41,694 nt of DNA from assembly GCA_000371745.1 (NCBI GenBank), contig AQUH01000004.1:1-41694 (forward strand). The letters are read 5' to 3'. Below are positions 1-11,960 of this stretch, piece after piece (within the stretch, counting starts at the first letter, position 1; each line of letters starts with the position of its first letter). The notes beneath the pieces were generated by a model. It searched no databases and was not told where the DNA came from. It saw only the letters and a program-made list of their open reading frames with translations. The stretch is from an alpha proteobacterium SCGC AAA280-B11. Its GTDB lineage: Bacteria > Pseudomonadota > Alphaproteobacteria > Pelagibacterales > Pelagibacteraceae. The position numbers were made by a program, and so were the translations under genes.

Positions 1-435
1 TTTTTTTTATTAATGGCAGCAAGAAATGAACACATTGTTAACAAAATAAATTTTTATCTTAAAAAAAACTTTATTATAGTTTGTGATAGATTTTTTTATT
101 CGACTTTAGCTTACCAACATTATTTGGAGGGTATGGATAAAAAATTTATATTTAATATTCAAAAAAAAATTTTTAATAAAGTTCATCCAAATATTACTTT
201 TTTGATTGATTTAAATAAAAAAGAATCAAAATCTAGAATTAAAAAAAGATCAAAAAGAACAAACAGATTCGATAGATTATCAAATTATCATTTTAACAAA
301 ATAAGAAACGGTTTTTTAAAAATATCTAAAATTTATAAAAATAAAATAATTTTAATTAATGGTAGTAAATCGATGTATGAAATTAAGAATGAAATCAATA
401 ACAAAACTTTAAAACTATTAAATGCAAAACGTTAA
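1..435 (+). CDS. tmk: thymidylate kinase, 5' end missing
   Basis: Phosphorylates dTMP to dTDP in the cytoplasm for DNA synthesis. The frame is open to the left edge (FFLLMAARNEH...), so the first visible ATG at base 13 is internal; the P-loop half lies outside the window. Visible family marks are the region matching LLxxAxRxEHV, the CDRFFYSTLAYQ segment (DRY/F-STLAYQG motif that contacts dTMP), the LID-like stretch KKRSKRTNRFD and the FLIDL strand. The 3' end overlaps holB by 14 bases. The tmk-holB pair is a common bacterial arrangement and supports both calls. Confidence 0.93.
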   Translation, partial: FFLLMAARNEHIVNKINFYLKKNFIIVCDRFFYSTLAYQHYLEGMDKKFIFNIQKKIFNKVHPNITFLIDLNKKESKSRIKKRSKRTNRFDRLSNYHFNKIRNGFLKISKIYKNKIILINGSKSMYEIKNEINNKTLKLLNAKR

Positions 436-1363
436 TTTTTTAAATATTGAGGAATTAAATAAATCTCAGAGGTTATTATACGGTCATGATGATTTATTTA
501 AAAAACTAACAAGTTTATACAAAATAAAAAAGCTACCTAATAAGATTATATTTAGTGGTTTCGATGGAGTAGGGAAGGCTACTTTTGTTTATCATTTAAT
601 AAATGCTATTTTATCAAGCCAAGAAGAGAATTCTTATAATCTTTCTGAAAAAAAAATTTTAGAAACCAATAAAAGTTATTTAGATTTGATTAATAATGTT
701 AATTTTAATTTAAAGCATTTAAAAGTAGATGATTCTAAAAAAATAATTTCAATAGAAGAAACTAGAGAAATAATAGATTTTTTTAATAAATCATCAATTA
801 ATAATAAGCCAAAAATTTTTTTTCTAGAAGGCGCAGAAAATCTTAATAAAAGCTCCTCAAACTCAATCTTAAAAGTTTTAGAAGAATTACCAGAAAATAA
901 TTATTTTTTTATTTCTCATATTGAAAATAAAAAATTATTGGAAACAATTAAATCCAGATGTTTTAACTGTAGACTTTTTGTTAGTTCCAAGGAAAGTCAA
1001 ATTATAAAAAAAAAGTTAATAGCTCAATATGACGCTAGTGACACTATTATTCCCAATTTAACGCCTGGAATAAACCTTAAAATAAGTCTTTTGTTTAAAG
1101 AACTAGACCTACATAAAAAAGATTTTTCAACAAAAATACTAGCTATCCAAAGTTATTATTTAGAAGAAAAATATAATAAAGTATTAGATTTAATGCATGT
1201 ATATATTGAAAATTACTTCGCTAATAATATAGAAAAAAATAATTTTTTTAAAAATTTTAGAATAAGAAATAAAATTAATAATATTATTCATAATATTAAT
1301 TCAATTAATAACGAGATTAAAAGTAGTTTTTATGAAATTAATCTTTTACTAGGCATCAAATAA
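422..1363 (+). CDS. holB: DNA polymerase III delta' subunit
   Basis: Clamp-loader subunit of the replicative polymerase. The 313-residue product has a Walker A-like GFDGVGKATF at about residues 46-55, a DNA polymerase III delta'-type segment SSSNSILKVLEELPENNYFF (normally NALLKTLEEPP) near residue 140, and an SRC sensor in KSRCFNCRLF. The zinc module of gamma/tau is not evident. It starts inside the end of tmk and its stop shares one base with the metG start, so it is surely part of the same transcript. The C-terminal third is poorly conserved and extremely rich in Asn, Ile and Lys, as expected from the base composition. Confidence 0.88.
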   Translation: MQNVNFLNIEELNKSQRLLYGHDDLFKKLTSLYKIKKLPNKIIFSGFDGVGKATFVYHLINAILSSQEENSYNLSEKKILETNKSYLDLINNVNFNLKHLKVDDSKKIISIEETREIIDFFNKSSINNKPKIFFLEGAENLNKSSSNSILKVLEELPENNYFFISHIENKKLLETIKSRCFNCRLFVSSKESQIIKKKLIAQYDASDTIIPNLTPGINLKISLLFKELDLHKKDFSTKILAIQSYYLEEKYNKVLDLMHVYIENYFANNIEKNNFFKNFRIRNKINNIIHNINSINNEIKSSFYEINLLLGIK

Positions 1364-2884
1364 TGAAAAATTTTTACCTCACTACACCTATTTATTACCC
1401 TTCAGCAAAACCACATATGGGCCATGCTTATTCGAGTATATCAGCTGATGTCATAGCGAGATTTAAAAGAATTGAAGGCTATAAAGTCAATTTTTTAACA
1501 GGAACGGACGAGCACGGTCTTAAAATCCAAAGAGCTGCCGAACAAAAAAAAAAAAATCCAAAAGATTTTTGCGATGAAATTTCTAAAAACTTTATTGATC
1601 TTGCAAAAAAATTAAATCTTACAAATACTGATTTTATAAGAACTACAGAAGCTAGACACAAAAAAACTGTTACTAAACTGTGGAGTATTCTTGAAGAGAA
1701 AAAAGAAATTTATATTTCTAAATATTCTGGATGGTATTCCGTATCTGATGAAGCATTTTATACAGAGGACGAAATTGAAACTAAATCTGATCTTAAAATT
1801 TCTAAGATCTCAGGATCCAAAGTTGAGTGGATGGAAGAAGAATCTTATTTTTTTAGACTTTCAAAATGGCAAGAACCTTTATTAAAATATTATGAAGATA
1901 ATCCTAATTTTATTTCTCCAACAAGTAGAAAGAATGAAGTTATCAGTTTTGTTAAAAGTGGACTAAAAGATCTTTCAATTAGCAGAACTTCTTTTAAGTG
2001 GGGCATACCAGTTCCAAATAATGATAAGCATATAATCTATGTTTGGCTTGACGCTCTCACTAACTACATAAGCGCTTTGAATTATTTTGAAAAAGATAAT
2101 AAAAATGAATTTTGGCCTGCAGATGTTCATATTATAGGAAAAGATATTATTAGATTCCATTGTGTTTATTGGCCAGCTTTTCTATTGGCGGCTGGGATTT
2201 CTCCACCAAAAAAAAGTTTTTGCTCATGGGTGGATTCTTTCTGGAGAGGAAAAAATGTCTAAATCAAAAGGAAATATTTTAGATCCTTTAGAGATTATTG
2301 AAAATTACGGCCTAGATGAAATTAGATATTATTTAATGAAAGAAGTTATTTATGGCGAGGATGGAAAAATAACACCGGAAAATTTAATTAATTGCATTAA
2401 TAGCGATTTAGCCAACAATATTGGAAATTTATATCAAAGAGTAACTTCAATTCTTCATAGTAAGTTAAATTCTACAATACCAAATTGCCAGCCAAATGAA
2501 AATTCTGACATAAAAATATTAAATTTAGTTGAAGAGAATTTAAATACACTAATTAATACTTTTAATAAATTTGAAATTCACAATTATTTGAAAAATATTA
2601 TTCAATTATGTTCTGAAGTTAATAAATATGTAAATGATTCTGCTCCTTGGTCTATTAAAGAGGACAATCTGCAAAAAAGAAACGTAATAATATATGTGGT
2701 TTTAGATTTTATTAGAAAAGTATCTATACTACTTCAACCAATTATACCTGAAAAAACTAAAATAATACTAGATTCATTAGATGTTAATGAAAATGACAGA
2801 TTTATAAAAAATATAAATAAAAATTTTGCTCTTACGCATGGTAATAAAATTAAAAAAATAAATATTTTATTTAAAAAACAATGA
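1363..2884 (+). CDS. metG: methionine--tRNA ligase, frame broken by one base
   Basis: Charges tRNA-Met. Two frames together make one enzyme. The first (1363-2262) carries the class I HMGH signature at residues 18-21, TDEHG and the YVWLDAL region. It should run on into VFAHGWILSGEEKMSKSKGN, but the KMSKS motif (bases 2252-2266) and everything after it lie in the next frame, up to 2884. The frames cross at an A8 run (2208-2215): with seven A the reading is PPKKVFAHGW. Corrected, the protein is about 506 residues, the usual size of the short MetG type without the zinc-knuckle insert and without the C-terminal tRNA-binding domain. The gene is essential, so sequencing error or slippage is more likely than true loss. 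It overlaps tatD by four bases (ATGA). Confidence 0.9.
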
Positions 2885-3651
2885 TTGTAGATTCGCATTG
2901 CCACCTTGATTACGAACCTTTAATTAATAATATTGATCAAGTTTTAATAAACGCTAAAAAAAATAATATTACAAAATTACTAACTATTGGTACAAGTTTT
3001 GAAAGCTCTATTAAAGTTTTAGATATAGTTGGAAAATACGAAAATATTTATGGCGCGATAGGTATTCATCCTAATTCCACAACTGGAAATTTAGATAAAT
3101 TAATCAGTATTCTCGAACTTAAAAAAAAAAGTAAAAAAATAATAGCTTTTGGCGAAACGGGTTTGGATTATTTTTATAAACACAGTAAAAAAAATGATCA
3201 GATCGTTTCATTTGAAAAACATGTTGAATTTTCTACAGTTGAGGGTGTACCTGTGATTGTTCATACAAGAGAAGCCGATGATGACACTATTTCTGTTATT
3301 AAAAAAAACTTCGTTAAGACAAATTTTTTAATACACTGTTTTACTGGATCATTAGATTTTGCAAAAAAATTACTAGATTTGAATTGTTTAATATCATTCA
3401 GCGGAATAATAACTTTCAAAAAATCAGAAGAATTAAGAAAAGTTGTAAAATATGTGCCTTTGGACAGAATGTTAATAGAGACAGATTCTCCTTATTTAAG
3501 TCCTGATCCATTCCGAGGCAAGAGCAATGAGCCTGCGTATGTAAAAATTGTTGCTGAAACCGTTGCATTAATTAAACAAACAAATTTTGATTTAGTTGCA
3601 AATTCTACAACAGATAATTTTCATAAATTGTTTTTTAATGAAAAAAACTAA
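2881..3651 (+). CDS. tatD: TatD family metal-dependent hydrolase/DNase
   Basis: Amidohydrolase-fold enzyme of the TatD family; members act as 3'-5' DNases or RNases in the cytoplasm. The 256-residue length is typical. Metal ligands are visible in order: DSHCHLD at the N terminus, GETGLDY (Glu), PVIVHTREAD (His), IHCFTGS (His) and IETDSPYL (Asp). The start is coupled to the metG stop (ATGA), and metG-tatD-metallohydrolase is a widespread bacterial order. Its end overlaps the next gene by 14 bases. The family is sure; the physiological substrate is not. Confidence 0.93.
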   Translation: MIVDSHCHLDYEPLINNIDQVLINAKKNNITKLLTIGTSFESSIKVLDIVGKYENIYGAIGIHPNSTTGNLDKLISILELKKKSKKIIAFGETGLDYFYKHSKKNDQIVSFEKHVEFSTVEGVPVIVHTREADDDTISVIKKNFVKTNFLIHCFTGSLDFAKKLLDLNCLISFSGIITFKKSEELRKVVKYVPLDRMLIETDSPYLSPDPFRGKSNEPAYVKIVAETVALIKQTNFDLVANSTTDNFHKLFFNEKN

Positions 3652-4423
3652 AGTAATTTTATTAGGAAGCGGAAGTTCTTTAGGTGTTCCAAGAATAGAT
3701 GGTTATTGGGGTAAAGTTAATAAAAAAAATAAAAAAAATCATAGAATGAGATGCTCGTTATTTATCAGGTATAAAGGAATGAATATAATTATAGACACAT
3801 CACCAGATATAAAAAATCAAGTTCTTAAAAATAAAATTAAAAAAATTGATTTCGTTATTTATACTCATGATCATGCAGATCAAACCCATGGAATCAATGA
3901 ACTTAGACCATTTTTTTGGCTTAATAAAAAAAAAATACCAATCTACGCTGACAAAGAAACATCAAGTTATTTAATGCGTTCTTTTAAATATCTATTTGTG
4001 AAGCAAAGCAAATATTATAAACCCATATTAAAGATGAATATTATTAAGAATAATTTTTATTTAAAAAAAAATAAAAATTTTATTCAGATAAAAAAAATAG
4101 AAGTCAAACATGGGGACATAAATGCTAATGGATATTTATTTAATAATATAGCTTACATTAGTGACTGTAGCTCAATATCAAGTAAATCATTAAAAAAGCT
4201 TATCAATTTAAAATTATTAATTATAGATTGTTTAAAATTTAAAGCTCACGCTACTCATTTAAATTTTAAAAAATGCTTATCTTATATAAAAATATTAAAA
4301 CCAAAAAAAACTATACTTACTAATTTACACAGCGATATAGATTATTTATCATTTAAGAAAAAATTATCAAAAATATCTAAAACAATAACTCCTGGCTACG
4401 ATGGACTTAAGGTTGTTATTTAA
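3638..4423 (+). CDS. MBL-fold metallohydrolase, PhnP-like
   Basis: Metallo-beta-lactamase-fold hydrolase related to PhnP (cyclic phosphate phosphodiesterase) proteins that follow tatD in many proteobacteria. The N terminus has LGSGSSLGVPRI, the family's G-S-G-(T/S)-S-x-G-x-P signature. The metal site is THDHAD at about residues 76-81, with later ligands likely in VKHGD, ISDCSS and the ATHLNF/LHSD region. I chose the ATG at 3638 (MKKTKVILLGSG) because an upstream start at 3596 only adds a stretch antisense in phase to the tatD end and no family sequence. 261 residues. It is translationally linked to the genes on both sides. The exact substrate is unknown. Confidence 0.85.
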   Translation: MKKTKVILLGSGSSLGVPRIDGYWGKVNKKNKKNHRMRCSLFIRYKGMNIIIDTSPDIKNQVLKNKIKKIDFVIYTHDHADQTHGINELRPFFWLNKKKIPIYADKETSSYLMRSFKYLFVKQSKYYKPILKMNIIKNNFYLKKNKNFIQIKKIEVKHGDINANGYLFNNIAYISDCSSISSKSLKKLINLKLLIIDCLKFKAHATHLNFKKCLSYIKILKPKKTILTNLHSDIDYLSFKKKLSKISKTITPGYDGLKVVI

Positions 4424-6531
4424 TGAGTAAAAAAAAAGAAATAGCAATATTATTACCTAATAAAGAAGATTATTCAAAAAATAATGCTGCTGCTGCTTCA
4501 ATTTGGGTAAAAGATTTTAATAGGGGTGAACTATTTAATAAAACAACAATTTTCGGTGTGGCTAAATCTTTACCTTATTTATCAAAAAATTTTATTAATT
4601 TAAATAATAAATTTTTAATAGGTAATAGTTATTTTTATTTAAAAAGTTTTATAAAAAGATTACCAAAAAATACAAAAATAATAGAAATTCACAACAGGCC
4701 GCATTTTTTTTTAATTCTTAAAAAAAAAATTCCTAATATAAAATTTATATTGGTATTTCATAATGATCCTAATTTATTAAGAGGATCAAAAACAATTAAT
4801 GAAAAAATAAAAATTTTAGAAAGTTGTGATGAAATTATTTTTGCAAGTTCTTATATCAAAGAAAGATTTTATTATAATTTAAAAAACACATTAAACCAGA
4901 AGGGAAATGTAGTTTATCCCTCAACCAATTATTATAATCATAATTTTAATAAAAAAATTCAAAAGGAAAAAATTATTATTTTTGTTGGAAAAATGAATTC
5001 CTCTAAGGGTTATAATATTTTTGGTGAGGCAGCTCTTAAAGTTTTAAACAAGTATAAAGATTGGCAAGTTATAATTGCTGGTAATGAAAAAAGAGAAACT
5101 TATAACTTTTACCATAAGAGACTTAAATTCTATAAATGGATTTCCCATAATAAAATTATTAATCTTTATAAAAAGTCCTCTATTTCTATCGTTCCATCTG
5201 TCTGGGAAGAGCCTTTTGGTCGAACAGCCATGGAATCCTCAGATATGGGTAATGCTGTAATAACATCCGGAAGGGGTGGATTAAAAGAAACATCCTTTAA
5301 ACCAATTATTCTTAAAAAATTAGATGCAATTTCTATTGAAAATGAAATTATAAAATTGATTAAAAGTCCAAAATTATTAAGAAAAATACAAAATTTTAAC
5401 TATAAAAATAAAAAAATTAATTACATAGATAATCTTAATTTAATAAATTCCATAAAAAAAAAGCTTCTTTTAAATAAAAAAAAAAATCTTATTAATTCTA
5501 TTAATAGAATATTACATATTTCAAATTTTGATGAAAAAACTCATCATAGATTATTTAATATTAATTTAGCCAATAAAATTAGCAATGGATTTGCTAAAAA
5601 TAAAATTTCGATAATTAATTTTAGTGATAGATCTTATGTAAAAAGTAAATTTTTTTTATATGCTTTAGAAAATGAAGTTAAAAATATTCTTAAAAATTAT
5701 AATCCTAATCTAATTTTATTAGGCCATACAAATTTATTGTCATTATCTTTTTTGCAGGAAATCAAATTTTACAATCCAGGTTTAAGAATAGCCTTTTGGT
5801 ACGAAGACTCTGTTAATAAAAATGGACCAGATTTTAATAAAAATATATCCTTTTTAGAGAAGTATAAATCAGTTGTTGATCAGTATTTTGTAACAACTAA
5901 CAAATATCACGTTCAAGCCTCAATACCTAAAAATAAATTAAATTATATCCCTGTACCATGTTCAGCATCAACGGAAAATCTAGATTTATACAAAACTAAA
6001 AATCATGAATTTGATATTTTTTTTGCATCCAGTCACGGGGTAAACAGGGGGGTTCTTAAAAAAAATAAAATAGATGAAAGATATAACTTTTTAAAATTGC
6101 TAATAGAAAAATCTAAAAATATTACTTATAATATATTTGGTTACGATAATATTTCTCCTGTATGGGGTGATAAATTTTATGATGAAATTTCAAAATGTAA
6201 ATTTGGGCTAAATTTGAGCAGGGGAAAACCTACAAAACATTACTCTAGCAACAGAATCGCTACATTGATTGCTAATGGGATCCCTACTTTAATAGATCAA
6301 AATACTAAATTTAACGATTTTTTTTCCAATAATGAAGTAATTTTTTATAAAAATATTGATGATTTAATTGTTAAAATTAATTTTTATAAAAAAAATGAAA
6401 ATGCAAGAAAAAAAATAGGGTTTAATGGAAAGAAAAAGTACTTCAAAATATTTAACAATCAAATTGTTGCTGATTATATTCTTTCTAAAACTTTGAAAAC
6501 GAAACCTAATTTTAAATATATATGGGAGTAA
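4423..6531 (+). CDS. fused double glycosyltransferase (GT4-like plus CgeB-like)
   Basis: A 702-residue protein with two GT-B type units. The N-terminal half (about 1-330) is a GT4-like transferase: FVGKMNSSKGYNIF, a nucleotide-sugar region, and VPSVWEEPFGRTAMESSDMG with the E-x7-E pattern. The second half (about 365-700) starts again with ILHISNFD and ends in NLSRGKPTKHYSSNRI...IANGIPTLID, which resembles the Glyco_trans_1_2/CgeB group. No membrane segment is seen. It probably adds sugars to surface polysaccharide or lipid; donor and acceptor cannot be read from sequence. It is the last gene of the plus-strand operon (TAATG overlap with the previous gene), an odd companion for replication and translation genes, and it ends next to the accessory block. 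Confidence 0.8.
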   Translation: MSKKKEIAILLPNKEDYSKNNAAAASIWVKDFNRGELFNKTTIFGVAKSLPYLSKNFINLNNKFLIGNSYFYLKSFIKRLPKNTKIIEIHNRPHFFLILKKKIPNIKFILVFHNDPNLLRGSKTINEKIKILESCDEIIFASSYIKERFYYNLKNTLNQKGNVVYPSTNYYNHNFNKKIQKEKIIIFVGKMNSSKGYNIFGEAALKVLNKYKDWQVIIAGNEKRETYNFYHKRLKFYKWISHNKIINLYKKSSISIVPSVWEEPFGRTAMESSDMGNAVITSGRGGLKETSFKPIILKKLDAISIENEIIKLIKSPKLLRKIQNFNYKNKKINYIDNLNLINSIKKKLLLNKKKNLINSINRILHISNFDEKTHHRLFNINLANKISNGFAKNKISIINFSDRSYVKSKFFLYALENEVKNILKNYNPNLILLGHTNLLSLSFLQEIKFYNPGLRIAFWYEDSVNKNGPDFNKNISFLEKYKSVVDQYFVTTNKYHVQASIPKNKLNYIPVPCSASTENLDLYKTKNHEFDIFFASSHGVNRGVLKKNKIDERYNFLKLLIEKSKNITYNIFGYDNISPVWGDKFYDEISKCKFGLNLSRGKPTKHYSSNRIATLIANGIPTLIDQNTKFNDFFSNNEVIFYKNIDDLIVKINFYKKNENARKKIGFNGKKKYFKIFNNQIVADYILSKTLKTKPNFKYIWE

Positions 6532-6543
6532 TACTAGATAACT

Positions 6544-6562
6544 AACATTATAAATGTTTTTT
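6544..6562 (+). terminator. intrinsic terminator of the tmk-glycosyltransferase operon
   Basis: AACATT and AATGTT form a perfect 6-bp stem around a 3-base ATA loop, followed by a T run (6557-6562). It lies 13 bases after the glycosyltransferase stop. The stem is AT-rich, so it is weak by usual rules. It abuts the convergent end of the recombinase gene. Confidence 0.5.
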
Positions 6563-7478
6563 ATAAATCTATTTTTGATAAAGCGTTATTTTTAAATAAA
6601 TTAGACTCCTTTATGTACCTTCTTACCATTTGAGTAGTTTTGTGGCCTGTCATATTCATAATACTTTTTTCATCAGCACCTGATCCTGCCGCTACTGTTG
6701 CAAAACCAGATCTTAAACTATGTCCTGAGTATTTTTTTGGATCAAATCCAGCTACAGATAAATATTTTTTAATTAAAATTGCTACCATTTTATCTGAGAT
6801 ATTAAAGACAAAGCCTTTTTTTGATTTAGAGATTTCAATCCATTTTTTTAAAAAAATAACAGGGCAAAAATTCTCATCTTTAAAATAGGGTATAGCCTTA
6901 ATCATACCTTCTCCAGATTGGTCAGTTTTTGATCTTTTGATAAAAATTTTTACACCTTCTTTTGTGAACTCCAAGTCTTCATGATCAATATTAACAAGCT
7001 CAGATCTTCTAAAGCCACCTGAAAATCCAATTAATATTAAGGCTTTGTCTCTATCCTTTCTTGATTCATCTTTTTCCGATTTTTCAATAATATTAATAAT
7101 TTCCTTTAATTCATTAATTAAAATTGGTTTTTTAGATTTCTGAAATACGCCCTTTTTTCTTTGTATCCCCATTAAATTTTCAATAATAAGTGGGTGCTTA
7201 ATATCTATATAGTGCCCTTTAACCTTGTGAATTACACTAATAGAAGCCAGTCTACGTTTTAACGTGCTTACTTTTGAATTTGATGACAGGTGAGTAATAT
7301 AGAAAGAAACGACTTTTGGCTGAGCTGGCAACGCACTAAAATTGTTTTTTTTGCAAAAATCAACAAAATGGTTAAAGTCAGATTTGTAAGCTCTAATTGT
7401 ATTGGCTGATTTGGAGGATTTAATATTGTCTAATGTCTCAATCTCAATAGAACTTAAATCTTTTACTAAATTTGACAT
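6561..7478 (-). CDS. tyrosine recombinase / integrase
   Basis: Site-specific recombinase of the tyrosine family. In the 305-residue version the N-terminal SAM-like DNA-binding domain (about 20-105) has the SANTIRAYKSDFNHFVDFC pattern. The catalytic domain holds Arg157 (GGFRRSE), Lys184 (SKTDQ), His253 and Arg256 (HSLR), His279 (TGHK) and nucleophile Tyr288 (VRRYIK), so the full R-K-H-R-H-Y set is present. I start it at 7478 (MSNLVKDL) because a longer frame from 7523 would run through a TTGACA promoter and a palindrome just upstream. It resembles phage/island integrases such as those acting on dispersed attachment sites more than XerC/D, whose sequences are more strongly conserved. No tRNA adjoins it, so the target site is unclear. 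Confidence 0.92.
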   Translation of the reverse strand: MSNLVKDLSSIEIETLDNIKSSKSANTIRAYKSDFNHFVDFCKKNNFSALPAQPKVVSFYITHLSSNSKVSTLKRRLASISVIHKVKGHYIDIKHPLIIENLMGIQRKKGVFQKSKKPILINELKEIINIIEKSEKDESRKDRDKALILIGFSGGFRRSELVNIDHEDLEFTKEGVKIFIKRSKTDQSGEGMIKAIPYFKDENFCPVIFLKKWIEISKSKKGFVFNISDKMVAILIKKYLSVAGFDPKKYSGHSLRSGFATVAAGSGADEKSIMNMTGHKTTQMVRRYIKESNLFKNNALSKIDL

Positions 7479-7482
7479 AAAT

Positions 7483-7507
7483 TTCCGATAACCATTAATT
7501 ATCGGAA
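7483..7507. promoter_or_regulatory. perfect palindrome at the integrase start of transcription
   Basis: TTCCGATAA and TTATCGGAA form a perfect 9-bp inverted repeat around a 7-base spacer. It abuts the predicted -10 box on one side and ends four bases before the integrase ATG on the other. The position suits an operator for autoregulation or for a separate repressor. The 9-7-9 geometry is also that of a tyrosine-recombinase core site. Confidence 0.6.
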
Positions 7508-7536
7508 CTATTAATACAACCATAAATTGATGTCAA
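7508..7536 (-). promoter_or_regulatory. sigma-70-type promoter of the integrase
   Basis: On the minus strand a perfect -35 TTGACA (7531-7536) is followed after 17 bases by TAATAG (7508-7513) as a weak -10. The start of transcription would fall inside the adjoining palindrome, about 20-25 bases before the ATG at 7478. Confidence 0.5.
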
Positions 7537-7566
7537 TATCTAACAAAAGAGTTATTTATCATTATA

Positions 7567-7938
7567 ATGCATCTAAAATTCGATAACTTTGAACTTAAGC
7601 TTAATCTAGATAACTCTCAAACAGCACTCAAATTAGCCAAATTAAGCTCATTTAAAGCCCAAATAAACACTTGGGGCGAAGAGATATACTTCGAGACCAC
7701 TAATCTAGGCATTAAACCAGATAAAAACGCTAGAGATATAGTCACTTTTGGTGAAGTTGCTTATTGGTGTGAAGGCAATTCAATAGCAATTGGCTTTGGA
7801 AAAACACCAGTTTCTATAGAAAACGAAATAAGACTAGTCTCAAAAGTTAATATTTTCGCAACTTTTATCACATCTTCAAAAGTACTTAATAATCTCAAAA
7901 AGCTTAATAATAATGATAAAATAAGTATCATAATTTAA
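7567..7938 (+). CDS. cyclophilin-like fold protein (Cyclophil_like, TM1367 type)
   Basis: A 123-residue protein matching the small cyclophilin-like family (formerly DUF369): NTWGEEIYFET, then DIVTFGEVAYWCEGNSIAIGFGKTPVS and ENEIRLVSKVNIFA, close to the family pattern of a GD-x-AYWPxG turn followed by FGPTP. The family shares the cyclophilin barrel, but its function is not established and prolyl isomerase residues are not obvious. No signal peptide or Shine-Dalgarno site is seen. It is transcribed divergently from the integrase, 88 bases away, and convergently to the next gene. It may be a chromosomal gene caught between accessory genes or cargo. Confidence 0.8.
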   Translation: MHLKFDNFELKLNLDNSQTALKLAKLSSFKAQINTWGEEIYFETTNLGIKPDKNARDIVTFGEVAYWCEGNSIAIGFGKTPVSIENEIRLVSKVNIFATFITSSKVLNNLKKLNNNDKISIII

Positions 7939-8031
7939 ATAGTTAAGTTTATATAAAAAGCTATTTAAAACATGTATTTAGTTATAATACTTAAAGTATC
8001 ACTTTATGTTATAGTAACTATTTAAATACAG

Positions 8032-8538
8032 TTAATAATAATGTCTTTTTGGCTTTTGAATCCTCCATTCTTGAGTACTGCCTAATCTGCCCTTATTGAT
8101 AGGCTCAAAAGGGTTAACCCAACCTCCATAAATAGACCAATCTTTCTTAGGCGTTGTAAAGTTGAATTTAATCTCTTTCTTCTTTAACTTTTCACGCTCC
8201 TTTTCAAGTTGAGCCTCACGTTCAGCTTCACGTTTCTTTTGGTAAGCATATAAATCATCATAAGAAGTATCGATCTTTTTAACTTCTTCCTTTGAATCGG
8301 AAACTTCAATGGCGGGTTTTTTAGCTTTTTTACCAGTCATTGATTCATATAAAGATGGATCATTAACTTCCATATAAGGTCCCCATTTTTCAATTAATTG
8401 ATTATGAGTATCTTTTATGAGCTGATTAAAAGTTGGCTTTGTTTTGACACGGCACATGCTTTTGTAACGAGGATTTGATAAAAAAACCCTTTTATTACGA
8501 GCATAATAACCGATTTTGGATGGATGTATTTTTTTCAT
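8032..8538 (-). CDS. uncharacterised protein with charged coiled-coil segment
   Basis: I do not recognise this 168-residue protein. The first half is basic (KIHPSKIGYYARNKR..., a LIKDTHNQLIEKWGPYM segment). Residues about 100-125 are a Glu/Lys/Arg-rich stretch (KKREAEREAQLEKEREKL) that should form a helix or coiled coil. The C terminus is aromatic and basic, ending KPKRHYY. No signal peptide or membrane segment. It starts in an ATGA overlap with the preceding minus-strand gene and has a full AGGAGG site, so the two are surely co-translated. Neighbourhood suggests phage or island origin. Confidence 0.72.
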   Translation of the reverse strand: MKKIHPSKIGYYARNKRVFLSNPRYKSMCRVKTKPTFNQLIKDTHNQLIEKWGPYMEVNDPSLYESMTGKKAKKPAIEVSDSKEEVKKIDTSYDDLYAYQKKREAEREAQLEKEREKLKKKEIKFNFTTPKKDWSIYGGWVNPFEPINKGRLGSTQEWRIQKPKRHYY

Positions 8539-9104
8539 TTTCTACCTCCTTTTTTTCTTTTTTTCTGAGCTTTTAAAAGAAGTTCCTCATACAATTGAAC
8601 TCTGCCAATTAATCTTCCCTCGATGGTATTCAATTTCAATAAAGAGCTTCCGGCATTGGAATCTCTTGTGAATGCCACACCAATTAAAGATTGATTTTTT
8701 AGAACTTTATTCTGATCACCTTCTTTAAAATCAGAATGAGTTATTTTATCAGAGGCTTTAGGTTTGTAAGAGTCTGCATCAAATTCTAGAATTTCATTTC
8801 CATAAATTCCGGTTTCTATGACACCAACCCTTCTCAATCTCCATAATAACTCTATAAGTTTTATAAAGATTTCCTCTTCATACGCCCCAAATGGTTTGTA
8901 CACTTTAAACATGCTACTTTTGAAAGTATTAAATTCTTCAATACTTTCTCCAATAATCACATGTTTTTCTGCTGTTAGGCCATGAGTTAAAGCATTGCCA
9001 CTCACCTTCTCTTTTCCAGATACAGTTCTAGGGCCAGTGCTTTTCTTGGCGTTTTGTCTATTAGCTCTAACCTTGTTGTTAGAGACTACTTTTAGTTTAG
9101 TCAT
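8535..9104 (-). CDS. conserved hypothetical protein with STGPRT...NALTHGLTA motif
   Basis: The 189-residue product begins with a strongly patterned segment, RANRQNAKKSTGPRT then GKEKVSGNALTHGLTAEK at about residues 12-45. This pattern (A-N-x2-N-A-x2-STGPRT-x2-G-K-x5-NAL-x-HGL) recurs in hypothetical proteins of planctomycetes and alphaproteobacteria; no function is known to me. The rest has a helical LIELLWRLRRVGVIE region and a basic tail (KAQKKRKKGGRK). The start at 9104 (MTKLKV) is preferred over 9143 because GGAG lies 5 bases upstream. Downstream partner: the 8032-8538 gene. The basic ends suggest nucleic acid binding, which is inference only. Confidence 0.75.
   Translation of the reverse strand: MTKLKVVSNNKVRANRQNAKKSTGPRTVSGKEKVSGNALTHGLTAEKHVIIGESIEEFNTFKSSMFKVYKPFGAYEEEIFIKLIELLWRLRRVGVIETGIYGNEILEFDADSYKPKASDKITHSDFKEGDQNKVLKNQSLIGVAFTRDSNAGSSLLKLNTIEGRLIGRVQLYEELLLKAQKKRKKGGRK
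8545..8550 (-). promoter_or_regulatory. consensus Shine-Dalgarno site
   Basis: Minus-strand AGGAGG lies 6 bases before the ATG at 8538 and inside the end of the preceding gene. Most genes in this window show no such site, so it supports a foreign origin and a high translation rate for the 8032-8538 gene. Confidence 0.75.
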
Positions 9105-9386
9105 AATTGCTCCATAATAATTTGATCCAAACGCGCAACCCACATGGCTAACGCTTTCGCGATCAAAAAGTTTAGTAATTTAAGGGCCACCAGAGACTGG
9201 TAAAAATTTAAGGCCGCATAGTTTGGAGTAACTATGTAACTAAAGCTAAAAATAATTTAGCAATACATACATGATAAGCTACCGACTGACTCCGTGTCAA
9301 CACCATCAAAAATCTTTCATTTTCAATGGTTTTTTCAATTTCTTATGGGAGGATATAGGATGAGTTTGAAGGTTATGGCGACTGGA
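9105..9386. other. GC-richer non-coding stretch with several hairpins
   Basis: No convincing gene fills this gap between the helicase stop and the 9104 start. By my count 9121-9240 has 50 G/C of 120 (about 42%). It contains successive perfect hairpins: ACCAG/CTGGT with a 3-base loop (9189-9201), CATAGTT/AACTATG with a 6-base loop (9217-9236) and GCTAAA/TTTAGC with a 5-base loop (9245-9261). TTTAAGG occurs twice (9179-9185 region and 9208-9213 region). It may be a 5' leader of the minus-strand pair, a small RNA gene or a recombination site. It does not match tRNA, tmRNA, RNase P or SRP RNA as far as I can judge. Confidence 0.4.
9110..9113 (-). promoter_or_regulatory. Shine-Dalgarno site deciding the start at 9104
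   Basis: Minus-strand GGAG is 5 bases before ATG 9104 and would be internal if translation began at 9143. Confidence 0.6.
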
Positions 9387-9455
9387 TTAAGACTTTTTAA
9401 ATTTGTTTTTAAATATTTTTGTATAATTCTGACCTCTTTGCAAACCTGTTCCTAA
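9360..9455 (+). CDS. possible 31-residue peptide
   Basis: An ATG at 9360 follows GGGAGG (9347-9352) at a 7-base spacing and opens a 31-codon frame, MSLKVMATGLRLFK..., with a hydrophobic C-terminal half (FVFKYFCIIL). It runs antisense into the 3' end of the helicase gene. The strong ribosome site is the only positive sign. It could be a small membrane peptide or the stump of a gene cut by insertion. No homologue is recognised. Confidence 0.15.
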   Translation: MSLKVMATGLRLFKFVFKYFCIILTSLQTCS

Positions 9456-11960
9456 AAAGTCACCCCATCCAACCCATGATTTAGAGTAAAATCTTGATGG
9501 GCTTTTGGGTATATCATTAGGAAAATTTTTATCTTTACTGAATAGAGAATATTCTAATTTTGATTTGATATTAAAATTTTTTATTTTGTTTTTTGCTTTA
9601 TTGTATGAAAGATAATTACATCCCAAAAATGTCGATAAGCCTTCCCACTTCTCTCTATAATATTTTTCTGGACTTACTGGAATATTGGGAGGAAAATTAT
9701 TAGACTTACTAAAAAGATACCATTCTTTTTGGTTCTTTAATTTAAATTTTTGAATAATATTTTTTGCATTTTCATAAGGTAAAAAATCTTTTTTATGTAC
9801 ATTGCCAGTTCCTAAAAAATCGCCCCAATTTGTCCACTCTTTAATATAAATTCTATGTGGAATACTTGAAACGTCTTTTGGTAATAATTTTTTTTTTGAA
9901 TAATTCATCCACTCTTCATAACTTTTTATTTTTAAAGATTGAGCATATTTTTTTGCTTCCTCATAAGATCTCCAGTTTCCAAATGCTACTCTGTCCCAAA
10001 CTTTTAATTGAATTGACTTGTTAAATTCTTCTTCATTAACTTTTGTAAGAACGTTTATTTTTGTAATACCATCTACTGGCGATCCGCCTTTAGGTATTGT
10101 TCCACTGCTTACAGCTCTTAAATATTCTATAATTCTTGTATCTTGTGTCGCTAAAGCTCTAATCGTTGCTACAATTTCTTCAAACGCTGTATCTTTTGCA
10201 GCTTCAGTTGCGTTTTCATTTTCAGGAATAATTAATGGAATAAGAATGTAACCAAACTTTTTTCCAGGTGATAATCTTAAAGCACGTCCTGCTGCTTGCA
10301 CAATATCTACTTTTGATTTCTTTGGATCTGTAAAGACCACACAATCTATTGCTGGAAGATCAACTCCTTCTGTAAGACATCTTGAATTTGTCATTAAACC
10401 TTTTGACTCTGCAAACTCTCTCATTTGTGATGATCTTTGATTAGTTGGCATATCTCCACTCACATGGAATGCTTTTAAATTTCCATACTCTGGATAAACC
10501 TTTGAGATTAGTTCTTGTTGAGCTTTAAAGTTATTGGCACGTCTTATTGATGAGTGAAATGAAATTGCATTTCTTATTCCAAGTTTTTTAATTGCTTTTC
10601 TTAACGCTAAAGCAGTTGCAAATTCTCTTGCCTTTATGTCATCAATTTCTTTTTTTATTTGTATGAATTTATTGTCGGTATAGATCGCCTCTATTTCAGG
10701 TTCACTAATTCCAAACGTTATTATCTTGTAATCTGAAATGATGGGCGGTTTTGCTTCAATAGCTTCTTTAAAACTTAGTTGATAAATAAGATCGCCATAG
10801 TCTCTAGGGTCATCCATTGAAAGATATTCTTCCTTATCACCTCTAAATAATCTCTCCGTTGCCGTCATAAACAGTCGATGCTTGATCTTAATATTCTTTT
10901 GATGAATTAAATGCGCCATTGGTTTTGAACCAAGCCCAACTGTCTTATGAGCTTCATCCATGATGCCAAGATCAAATGTAAAACCTTTAGATCCAGCTGC
11001 AGTTACTTTTCCAGATTGATATGTTGTAAATACTATCTTTGTATTTGCTTTAGATTTTAGAAACTTCTTAATTTCATTCTTATCTGTAGTTACATCAATT
11101 CCAAGTTCGTAAATATTGCTTACAAAATCATCCTGATCATCGCTAACTGTTTGATCTGAACATACACATAACCAATCGGGTTTTATTCCAGCAATTAAAT
11201 ATTCACGTGTCCAAACTTTTAATGTTTGTTGAAGTAGCGCTAGAGATGGTACGGCAATTAAAACTGATTTAGCTTTAAGTCTATTTGCAATCCAGAAAGC
11301 TGTTAAAGATTTCCCTGTTCCGCAAGGCATGATGACCTTGCCACGTTCTTTGGTTTTAAAGTATTCAATAGTTTTATTAATTGCTTTTACTTGATGAGGT
11401 CTTGGGGAAAGAGCTTTAGGTATAATTACTTTACCTTCGGTCTTTGCTTTAATTAAATTCCAACGTTCAAGATTATTATCATCTAATTCAAGAAAACTTT
11501 CTAAAGTTACAAAGCTTACGCCTTTTAATAATTTTGTTTTTAATGGTGGTTTATCAGCTGTGGTCATAACAAGACCAAGTGAAATATTTTTACAATTATT
11601 GAATGTTAAATTTGCAAAAGTTGCTAGATCACCTTTGATAGTAAGAGTATCTTTTGGATCTGATCTGTATTTAGATTGAATGGCCCAGTACTTATTATCA
11701 AAGGTTTCTGCAATTAAATCTATTCCTTCATCAGTGTTTGGTAGATTGAGTTTTCTTTTTAAATCTTCTTTAACTTCCTTTAATAGCCAAACATTCTTTA
11801 ATTTAGTCTGATATTCTGGAGTTGTTTGAAGAAAGTATTTACAAACGTTTTCAAATATATCGCCTGCAAATTTTGCCTGCCCTGATTTAGTAAGTTCTTC
11901 TAGCTTCTTATTTAAATCACTCCAGCTATTTGAGCTGGATATGAGTTTTAGGGATTGCAT
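9387..11960 (-). CDS. restriction-type nuclease fused to SF2 helicase with C-terminal repeats
   Basis: An 857-residue, probably cytoplasmic DNA enzyme in three parts. (1) Residues about 25-150: PD-(D/E)xK, Mrr-like nuclease with Glu37 (GDIFE), Asp81 (DEGIDLIAE) and QSK at 95-97 (YWAIQSKY). (2) About 180-580: superfamily 2 helicase/translocase with RPHQ, Walker A GTGKS (214-218), DEAH (335-338), MTAT, and motifs V-VI in TEGVDLPA and QAAGRALR. (3) About 660-840: three 55-60-residue repeats ending in W-x2-WGDFLGTG or a variant. It resembles the nuclease-helicase part of single-chain restriction enzymes (COG4889-like), but no methyltransferase domain or neighbour is present. Its start directly adjoins the stop of the upstream gene. 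A role in defence or island maintenance is inferred. Confidence 0.85.
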   Translation of the reverse strand: MQSLKLISSSNSWSDLNKKLEELTKSGQAKFAGDIFENVCKYFLQTTPEYQTKLKNVWLLKEVKEDLKRKLNLPNTDEGIDLIAETFDNKYWAIQSKYRSDPKDTLTIKGDLATFANLTFNNCKNISLGLVMTTADKPPLKTKLLKGVSFVTLESFLELDDNNLERWNLIKAKTEGKVIIPKALSPRPHQVKAINKTIEYFKTKERGKVIMPCGTGKSLTAFWIANRLKAKSVLIAVPSLALLQQTLKVWTREYLIAGIKPDWLCVCSDQTVSDDQDDFVSNIYELGIDVTTDKNEIKKFLKSKANTKIVFTTYQSGKVTAAGSKGFTFDLGIMDEAHKTVGLGSKPMAHLIHQKNIKIKHRLFMTATERLFRGDKEEYLSMDDPRDYGDLIYQLSFKEAIEAKPPIISDYKIITFGISEPEIEAIYTDNKFIQIKKEIDDIKAREFATALALRKAIKKLGIRNAISFHSSIRRANNFKAQQELISKVYPEYGNLKAFHVSGDMPTNQRSSQMREFAESKGLMTNSRCLTEGVDLPAIDCVVFTDPKKSKVDIVQAAGRALRLSPGKKFGYILIPLIIPENENATEAAKDTAFEEIVATIRALATQDTRIIEYLRAVSSGTIPKGGSPVDGITKINVLTKVNEEEFNKSIQLKVWDRVAFGNWRSYEEAKKYAQSLKIKSYEEWMNYSKKKLLPKDVSSIPHRIYIKEWTNWGDFLGTGNVHKKDFLPYENAKNIIQKFKLKNQKEWYLFSKSNNFPPNIPVSPEKYYREKWEGLSTFLGCNYLSYNKAKNKIKNFNIKSKLEYSLFSKDKNFPNDIPKSPSRFYSKSWVGWGDFLGTGLQRGQNYTKIFKNKFKKS
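9441..9971 (-). repeat. three tandem protein repeats at the helicase C terminus
   Basis: Each repeat reads roughly: aromatic-x2-A-K ... L/F-x-I/L-K-S/N-x2-E-W/Y ... S-K-x5-P-x-D/N-I-P-x2-P-x3-Y-x4-W-x2-W/L-x2-F-L-G. Copies end at WTNWGDFLGTG, WEGLSTFLGC and WVGWGDFLGTG; the middle copy is the most diverged. The pattern matches what I know as the phage-integrase repeat unit, common in algal and marine bacterial proteins; the assignment is from memory of the motif. Confidence 0.7.

Follow-up and report, generated by a model that had tools for sequence, protein, structure and literature searches.

What is the role of a perfect palindrome that lies across the expected transcription start of a tyrosine recombinase gene in SAR11, a group that ranks among the planet's most abundant bacteria? 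The question is raised by a window of 41,694 nucleotides, the whole stretch of DNA analyzed here, from the alpha proteobacterium SCGC AAA280-B11 (contig AQUH01000004.1 of assembly GCA_000371745.1), which we take to be a SAR11 organism and probably a freshwater Fonsibacter. The preliminary description of this locus considered the palindrome to be either an operator or a recombinase core site that would tie integration to expression. We propose, with a probability that we put at about 0.87, that it serves as dif for an Xer system with one recombinase in the Pelagibacteraceae (SAR11). The relevant features of the window are as follows.

7483..7507, minus strand: proposed dif site, class A, TTCCGATAA-TTAATGG-TTATCGGAA, with perfect 9-bp arms that are conserved across loci
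7508..7513, minus strand: −10 element TAATAG, abutting the palindrome
7531..7536, minus strand: −35 element TTGACA, 17 bp from the −10 element
6561..7478, minus strand: single tyrosine recombinase of 305 aa, the proposed one-recombinase Xer (Pfam, alignment, conserved start)
4501..9000, no strand: replication-terminus switch; across the site, GC skew goes from positive to negative and the strand bias of genes from plus to minus (window skew and ORF orientation)

The Palindrome and Its Promoter

The 9-7-9 palindrome is indeed perfect, and its promoter context is as originally described, on the minus strand: TTGACA, 17 nt, TAATAG, the palindrome, ATTT and then the ATG of the recombinase gene at 7478, such that only 4 nt separate palindrome and start codon. 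A longer ORF call (start 7523) would cross the palindrome; relatives conserve the start at 7478. With up to three mismatches allowed, there is one copy of the palindrome in the window and one in the 672-kb draft genome. The argument that such a palindrome is unlikely by chance proved to be weak, as the window contains 20 palindromes with perfect 9-bp arms and spacers of 4–10 (shuffled mean 8.6, maximum 23), and the single one observed with at least three G/C per arm compares with an expected 0.53. We therefore rejected improbability as proof of function, and the significance of the palindrome comes from its conservation between relatives rather than from the statistics of an AT-rich window alone.

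Conservation and the Two Site Classes

The preliminary description had made a functional role depend on conservation next to homologous genes, and the palindrome or a counterpart, termed class B, adjoins the homologous recombinase at 85/85 of the loci compared (51 class A and 34 class B). The identical 25-mer is found directly upstream of the start codon in homologues with 63–87% protein identity and diverged flanking DNA, and the arms extend to 11-7-11 in G004 and L028. Throughout the SAR11-family genomes the site is essentially exact, occurs once per genome and lies beside the recombinase gene, while the few sites with two mismatches elsewhere in these genomes resemble chance matches. It is palindromic, non-coding, of low GC content and present once per chromosome, which are the properties by which single-recombinase Xer/dif sites (about 28–31 bp) are recognized. 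Across 50 class A loci, arms and center hold 1.77–1.93 of 2 bits of information, compared to 0.6–0.7 in the flanks, and the asymmetric 7-bp center is conserved as strongly as the arms.

The promoter is also conserved. In the 84 loci scored it directly abuts the site, with a −10-like hexamer that abuts or nearly abuts the arm, a −35 element that is TTGACA in 68 and TTGACT in 15, and a 17-bp spacing in 73. This constant distance to the −10 element is what would be expected if the palindrome were only an operator, at which the recombinase or some other regulator controls the gene and no crossover takes place, and a single copy per genome at a position inside the promoter would also fit. Nevertheless, we consider this to be very unlikely, given an asymmetric center that is as conserved as the arms, the location of the site at a skew switch in all nine genomes sampled, and the presence of the same arms in phages upstream of terL, away from any recombinase gene (see below for both).

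In other genomes class A is replaced by class B, with the consensus ACTAATGATAA-TTAATTG-TTATCAATAGT. Across the 85 loci, site class requires a single change on the recombinase tree, compared to 22 changes for genus, and since class splits exactly with recombinase phylogeny, site and gene travel as one module. All 34 class B proteins have an insert after residue 225 together with Gln at 230, and none of the 51 class A proteins do (0/51), which is the behavior that would be expected of a recognition pair. There are also exchanges within genera. In g1, which we take to be the freshwater group LD12/Fonsibacter, site class and recombinase type are swapped together in L203 (G011) relative to L002-L005 with the genus-type −35/−10 promoter kept, and in g9 the site class and recombinase are jointly swapped between G020 and G032, again with retention of the genus-type promoter. 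These swaps look as if they arose by in-place replacement through recombination.

The Recombinase and Its Relatives

The catalytic residues of the recombinase (R157, K184, H253, R256, H279, and Y288) are invariant in an alignment of 24 relatives. One ortholog, with 55–87% identity, is present in 11/11 closed genomes of the Pelagibacteraceae (SAR11) family and is the only tyrosine recombinase in eight of them; the other three encode one or more additional tyrosine recombinases, all non-orthologous. Counting against a family-wide dif system are some nearly complete drafts, such as G023 (99% complete), that contain neither the recombinase gene nor the site. Draft incompleteness accounts for some of the absences of gene and site, but perhaps not for all of them.

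By profile scoring the protein falls far under every Xer equivalog cut-off, with an XerS model score of 54 of 267 bits, and a search of the PDB matched XerH with only E = 0.0078. The nearest solved structures are Cre and XerD by sequence and Cre by fold, the latter using a predicted structure of moderate confidence (mean pLDDT 73). In a tree that included E. coli XerC/XerD and plasmid and viral recombinases, and that left out XerL, XerS, and XerH, the SAR11 recombinase joins the plasmid and viral recombinases with 100/100 support.

Such relationships, with related proteins on plasmids and viral contigs and a gene that both Pfam and PHROGs label as a phage integrase, would suit a prophage or genomic island with its integrase and attachment site, and the preliminary description had likewise taken the gene for a mobile-element integrase. 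That the locus is of this type is highly improbable and for practical purposes refuted: a single ortholog is found family-wide in a constant place at the terminus, there is no other Xer in the genome, and there can be no attL/attR pair because each genome has one copy of the site. The recombinase gene is chromosomal, present in single copy, of Xer type and located at the terminus, and the site is therefore best read as dif rather than as an attachment site. The idea that integration is tied to expression was accordingly not supported.

The Site Lies at the Replication Terminus

With skew taken from 20-kb samples rather than from whole chromosomes, the cumulative-skew maximum (40 kb either side) is at most 2.4 kb from the site in 9/9 closed genomes sampled, with offsets of +2370, −2097, −1501, −1867, −1858, −1034, +548, −2078, and +1062. 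The distance from the site to dnaA is 0.42–0.58 of the circle in 11/11 closed genomes, and in the closed genome G004, where dnaA is at base 382, the 20-kb skew changes from +0.12 to −0.07 at the site. The FtsK gamma domain is present in 12/12 genomes. We also examined the octamer GCAGGTGG as a possible FtsK-orienting sequence (8 closed genomes, L085-L164), and it was not accepted as such since its 31:1 orientation toward the site within 120 kb becomes 4:9 further out, leaving the dif reading with no established FtsK-orienting motif, a point against it.

Immediately to the left of the terminus in the window is an AT-rich block (13-6531, plus strand, about 24–26% GC) of plus-strand ORFs, the last of which encodes a two-domain glycosyltransferase, and this block may be a variable surface-polysaccharide region. 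Also beside the terminus, on the minus strand, is the gene for an 857-aa protein (9387-11960) with Mrr-type nuclease, ResIII and helicase domains and with weak integrase-type repeats near the C-terminus, which is possibly a restriction or defense gene. Between the recombinase region and this helicase gene are two overlapping minus-strand ORFs (8032-8538 and 8535-9143) that had no Pfam or NCBIfam match.

Comparison With Known Xer Systems and Cre

Genomes of the sister family (f2), which belongs to the same order, usually have two weaker recombinase matches each. These group with XerC and XerD of E. coli (100/100), and a canonical dif, TTCGTATAA-TATATA-TTATGTNAAAT, is present in 12/20 genomes with a variant in one more (e.g., L207, L210-L212). 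In the Pelagibacteraceae-like family we found neither a recurrent canonical dif with a 6-bp center nor an XerC and XerD pair. As XerCD and canonical dif are kept in the sister family, it is specifically from the Pelagibacteraceae-like family that XerCD has been lost. The SAR11 system shares with XerCD/dif the terminus location, the inner ATAA/TTAT of the arms and the presence of FtsK gamma, but uses one recombinase, in a separate clade (100/100), rather than two.

Precedents for gene-linked single-recombinase systems near the replication terminus are XerS/difSL and XerH/difH (PMC5357621, PMC2731167). These systems, of streptococci and lactococci and of Helicobacter and Campylobacter, respectively, have in common with that of SAR11 a single recombinase and a gene-adjacent dif near the terminus. 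The SAR11 recombinase is nevertheless shorter (about 305 aa vs 354–362 for XerS/XerH) and is set apart from XerS by its weak XerS model score, the center of its site is 7 bp compared to 11 bp in difSL, and, unlike the XerS and XerH systems, it has near-perfect symmetric arms, a site in the promoter of the gene and two interchangeable site classes. The XerL/dif system of the Legionellales was likewise a single-recombinase system overlooked by homology searches and was exposed by the dif-mimicking element LME-1 (PMC9765430). SAR11 resembles it in having a single recombinase missed by homology and mobile elements with a dif mimic, while dif is more than 400 kb from xerL in Legionella and 4 bp from the recombinase gene in SAR11.

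Cre/lox of phage P1 is similar in that one recombinase acts with a near-symmetric site that has a short asymmetric center, although the geometry is 13-8-13 in loxP and 11-7-11 in the SAR11 site. Cre is only about 20% identical to the SAR11 recombinase, which is chromosomal, at the terminus and family-wide, and the plasmid Cre-like resolvases are 35–42% identical to it.

Proposed Mechanism and Origin

The suggestion of a recombinase core site has thus held up, with support from conserved arms and center, single copy, terminus location, the co-inheritance of site class with the recombinase and the absence of XerC/XerD and canonical dif, all of them read from sequence. From the same data we infer binding, cleavage, dimer resolution, FtsK control, autoregulation and plasmid origin. 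In the proposed mechanism, recombinase molecules would occupy the arms of both dif copies on a chromosome dimer, the two copies would pair at the terminus, and strand exchange across the 7-bp center would yield monomers, probably at the septum and with the FtsK gamma domain that SAR11 genomes have kept. Since the site is over the transcription start, autorepression is predicted, with bound recombinase perhaps repressing its own gene. Such autoregulation is plausible and compatible with a dif role, given the promoter that directly abuts the site in the 84 loci scored.

A plasmid- or phage-type recombinase-plus-site module seems to have replaced XerCD/dif in the Pelagibacteraceae. A 7-bp-spacer site is present just upstream of the recombinase gene in plasmid relatives from Alicyclobacillus dauci, Protochlamydia pPNK, and Hymenobacter and in viral contig L257, and was not seen in the other relatives examined. 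In view of the relatives that have a similar upstream site, the module is probably of plasmid or phage origin and took over from XerCD. A pattern search of viral contigs for the SAR11 recombinase gave no relative, and the SAR11 gene itself was absent. Two viral contigs found by way of the site, L257 and L282, encode 35–42% relatives of the SAR11 recombinase and are possible relatives of the donor of the module. The same perfect arms are at 7536-7560 in L257 (recombinase relative at 6514-7521) and at 1769-1793 in L282 (recombinase relative at 363-1358).

Dif-Like Sites in Pelagiphages

The HTVC010P-type pelagiphages are among the most abundant viruses of the ocean and are regarded as strictly lytic. 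The exact arms of the site are present in at least 120 IMG/VR contigs, and of the 95 low-GC contigs that contain them, 66 share a terminase gene roughly 350–540 bp from the site, the terminase being about 60% identical to that of HTVC010P-type pelagiphages. Contigs were also drawn by terminase alone, not by site, giving 86 close relatives. An ATAA-N7-TTAT palindrome (at least 8/11) is located at most 1 kb upstream of terL in 44/86 of these, compared to 1.9 in shuffles (maximum 5), and the phage palindromes cluster 300–500 bp upstream of terL; these counts leave out spacer-6 phage matches, which are mostly a terminator-like hairpin at about −550. Exact class A halves are found in 22/63 HTVC010P-like, 22/23 freshwater, and 1/35 distant-terminase loci. 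Many phage loci have two sites in tandem at a distance of 29 bp, one class-A-like and the other class-B-like, and in L333-L335 a class-A-like site is next to one that matches the host class B site exactly, host center included.

Dif-like phage sites, often in tandem, were seen in L370-L479 (upstream of terL), L333-L335, L342-L348, and L546. Isolates HTVC010P, HTVC100P, HTVC035P, and HTVC106P have full or partial dif-like versions, and HTVC028P, which has an integrase, has no dif-like site in the corresponding region. The same arms, with ATATATA/ATATATC-type centers, also occur in GC-rich (about 60%) viral contigs (L236, L330, L240, L277, L247, and L258), where they fall within long open frames of about 380–423 codons.

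The HTVC010P-type pelagiphages have been described as lytic because neither an integrase nor any other lysogeny gene is found in them (PMC6811365, PMC8163748). Their dif-like sites suggest the use of the host recombinase, and the presence of such a site where the element has no integrase of its own is a property by which an IMEX, an element that exploits the host Xer, is recognized. We tentatively propose, at a little under even odds, that these phages use the host Xer by means of tandem mimics of both host dif classes, either to integrate or recombine at the terminus of the host or to resolve phage genomes. No prophage was found at the host dif; TerL relatives are present in 8/397 genomes, and in the six genomes where both genes were located the terL relative never adjoins the recombinase. 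Integration is for this reason put forward as a hypothesis, with resolution by the host recombinase as the main alternative. In that case the host recombinase would act on the sites upstream of terL to circularize the phage genome or resolve its multimers, or the sites would be signals of the phage's own, and they would not direct integration at the host dif. A parallel for genome circularization and resolution is found in P1, where loxP is near pac. The lack of a prophage at the host dif and the position of most sites 300–500 bp upstream of terL favor this alternative. Against it are the tandem pairs of a class A and a class B type, which correspond to the two host classes, and the site in L333-L335 that is identical to host class B down to its center, and on balance we regard it as somewhat less likely than not.

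Implications for SAR11 and Its Phages

Pelagibacter ubique has been cited as a case in which genome streamlining removed dif/Xer (PMC2731167), and we found no report of a SAR11 dif/Xer system in the open-access literature. The published view is that Pelagibacter is without dif/Xer. If our reading is true, SAR11 did not lose dif/Xer but exchanged it for a compact module of plasmid type, with a single site common to gene, promoter and dif. The site would then be an exact terminus marker for SAR11 genomes, and the paired swaps of site and recombinase between genera represent a natural experiment in how specific these recombinases are. With the pelagiphage copies, the strictly lytic status of HTVC010P-type phages can be tested directly, in part from deposited reads, and if these phages do use the host Xer then the two-class site polymorphism of SAR11 may in part be a host response to phage mimics.
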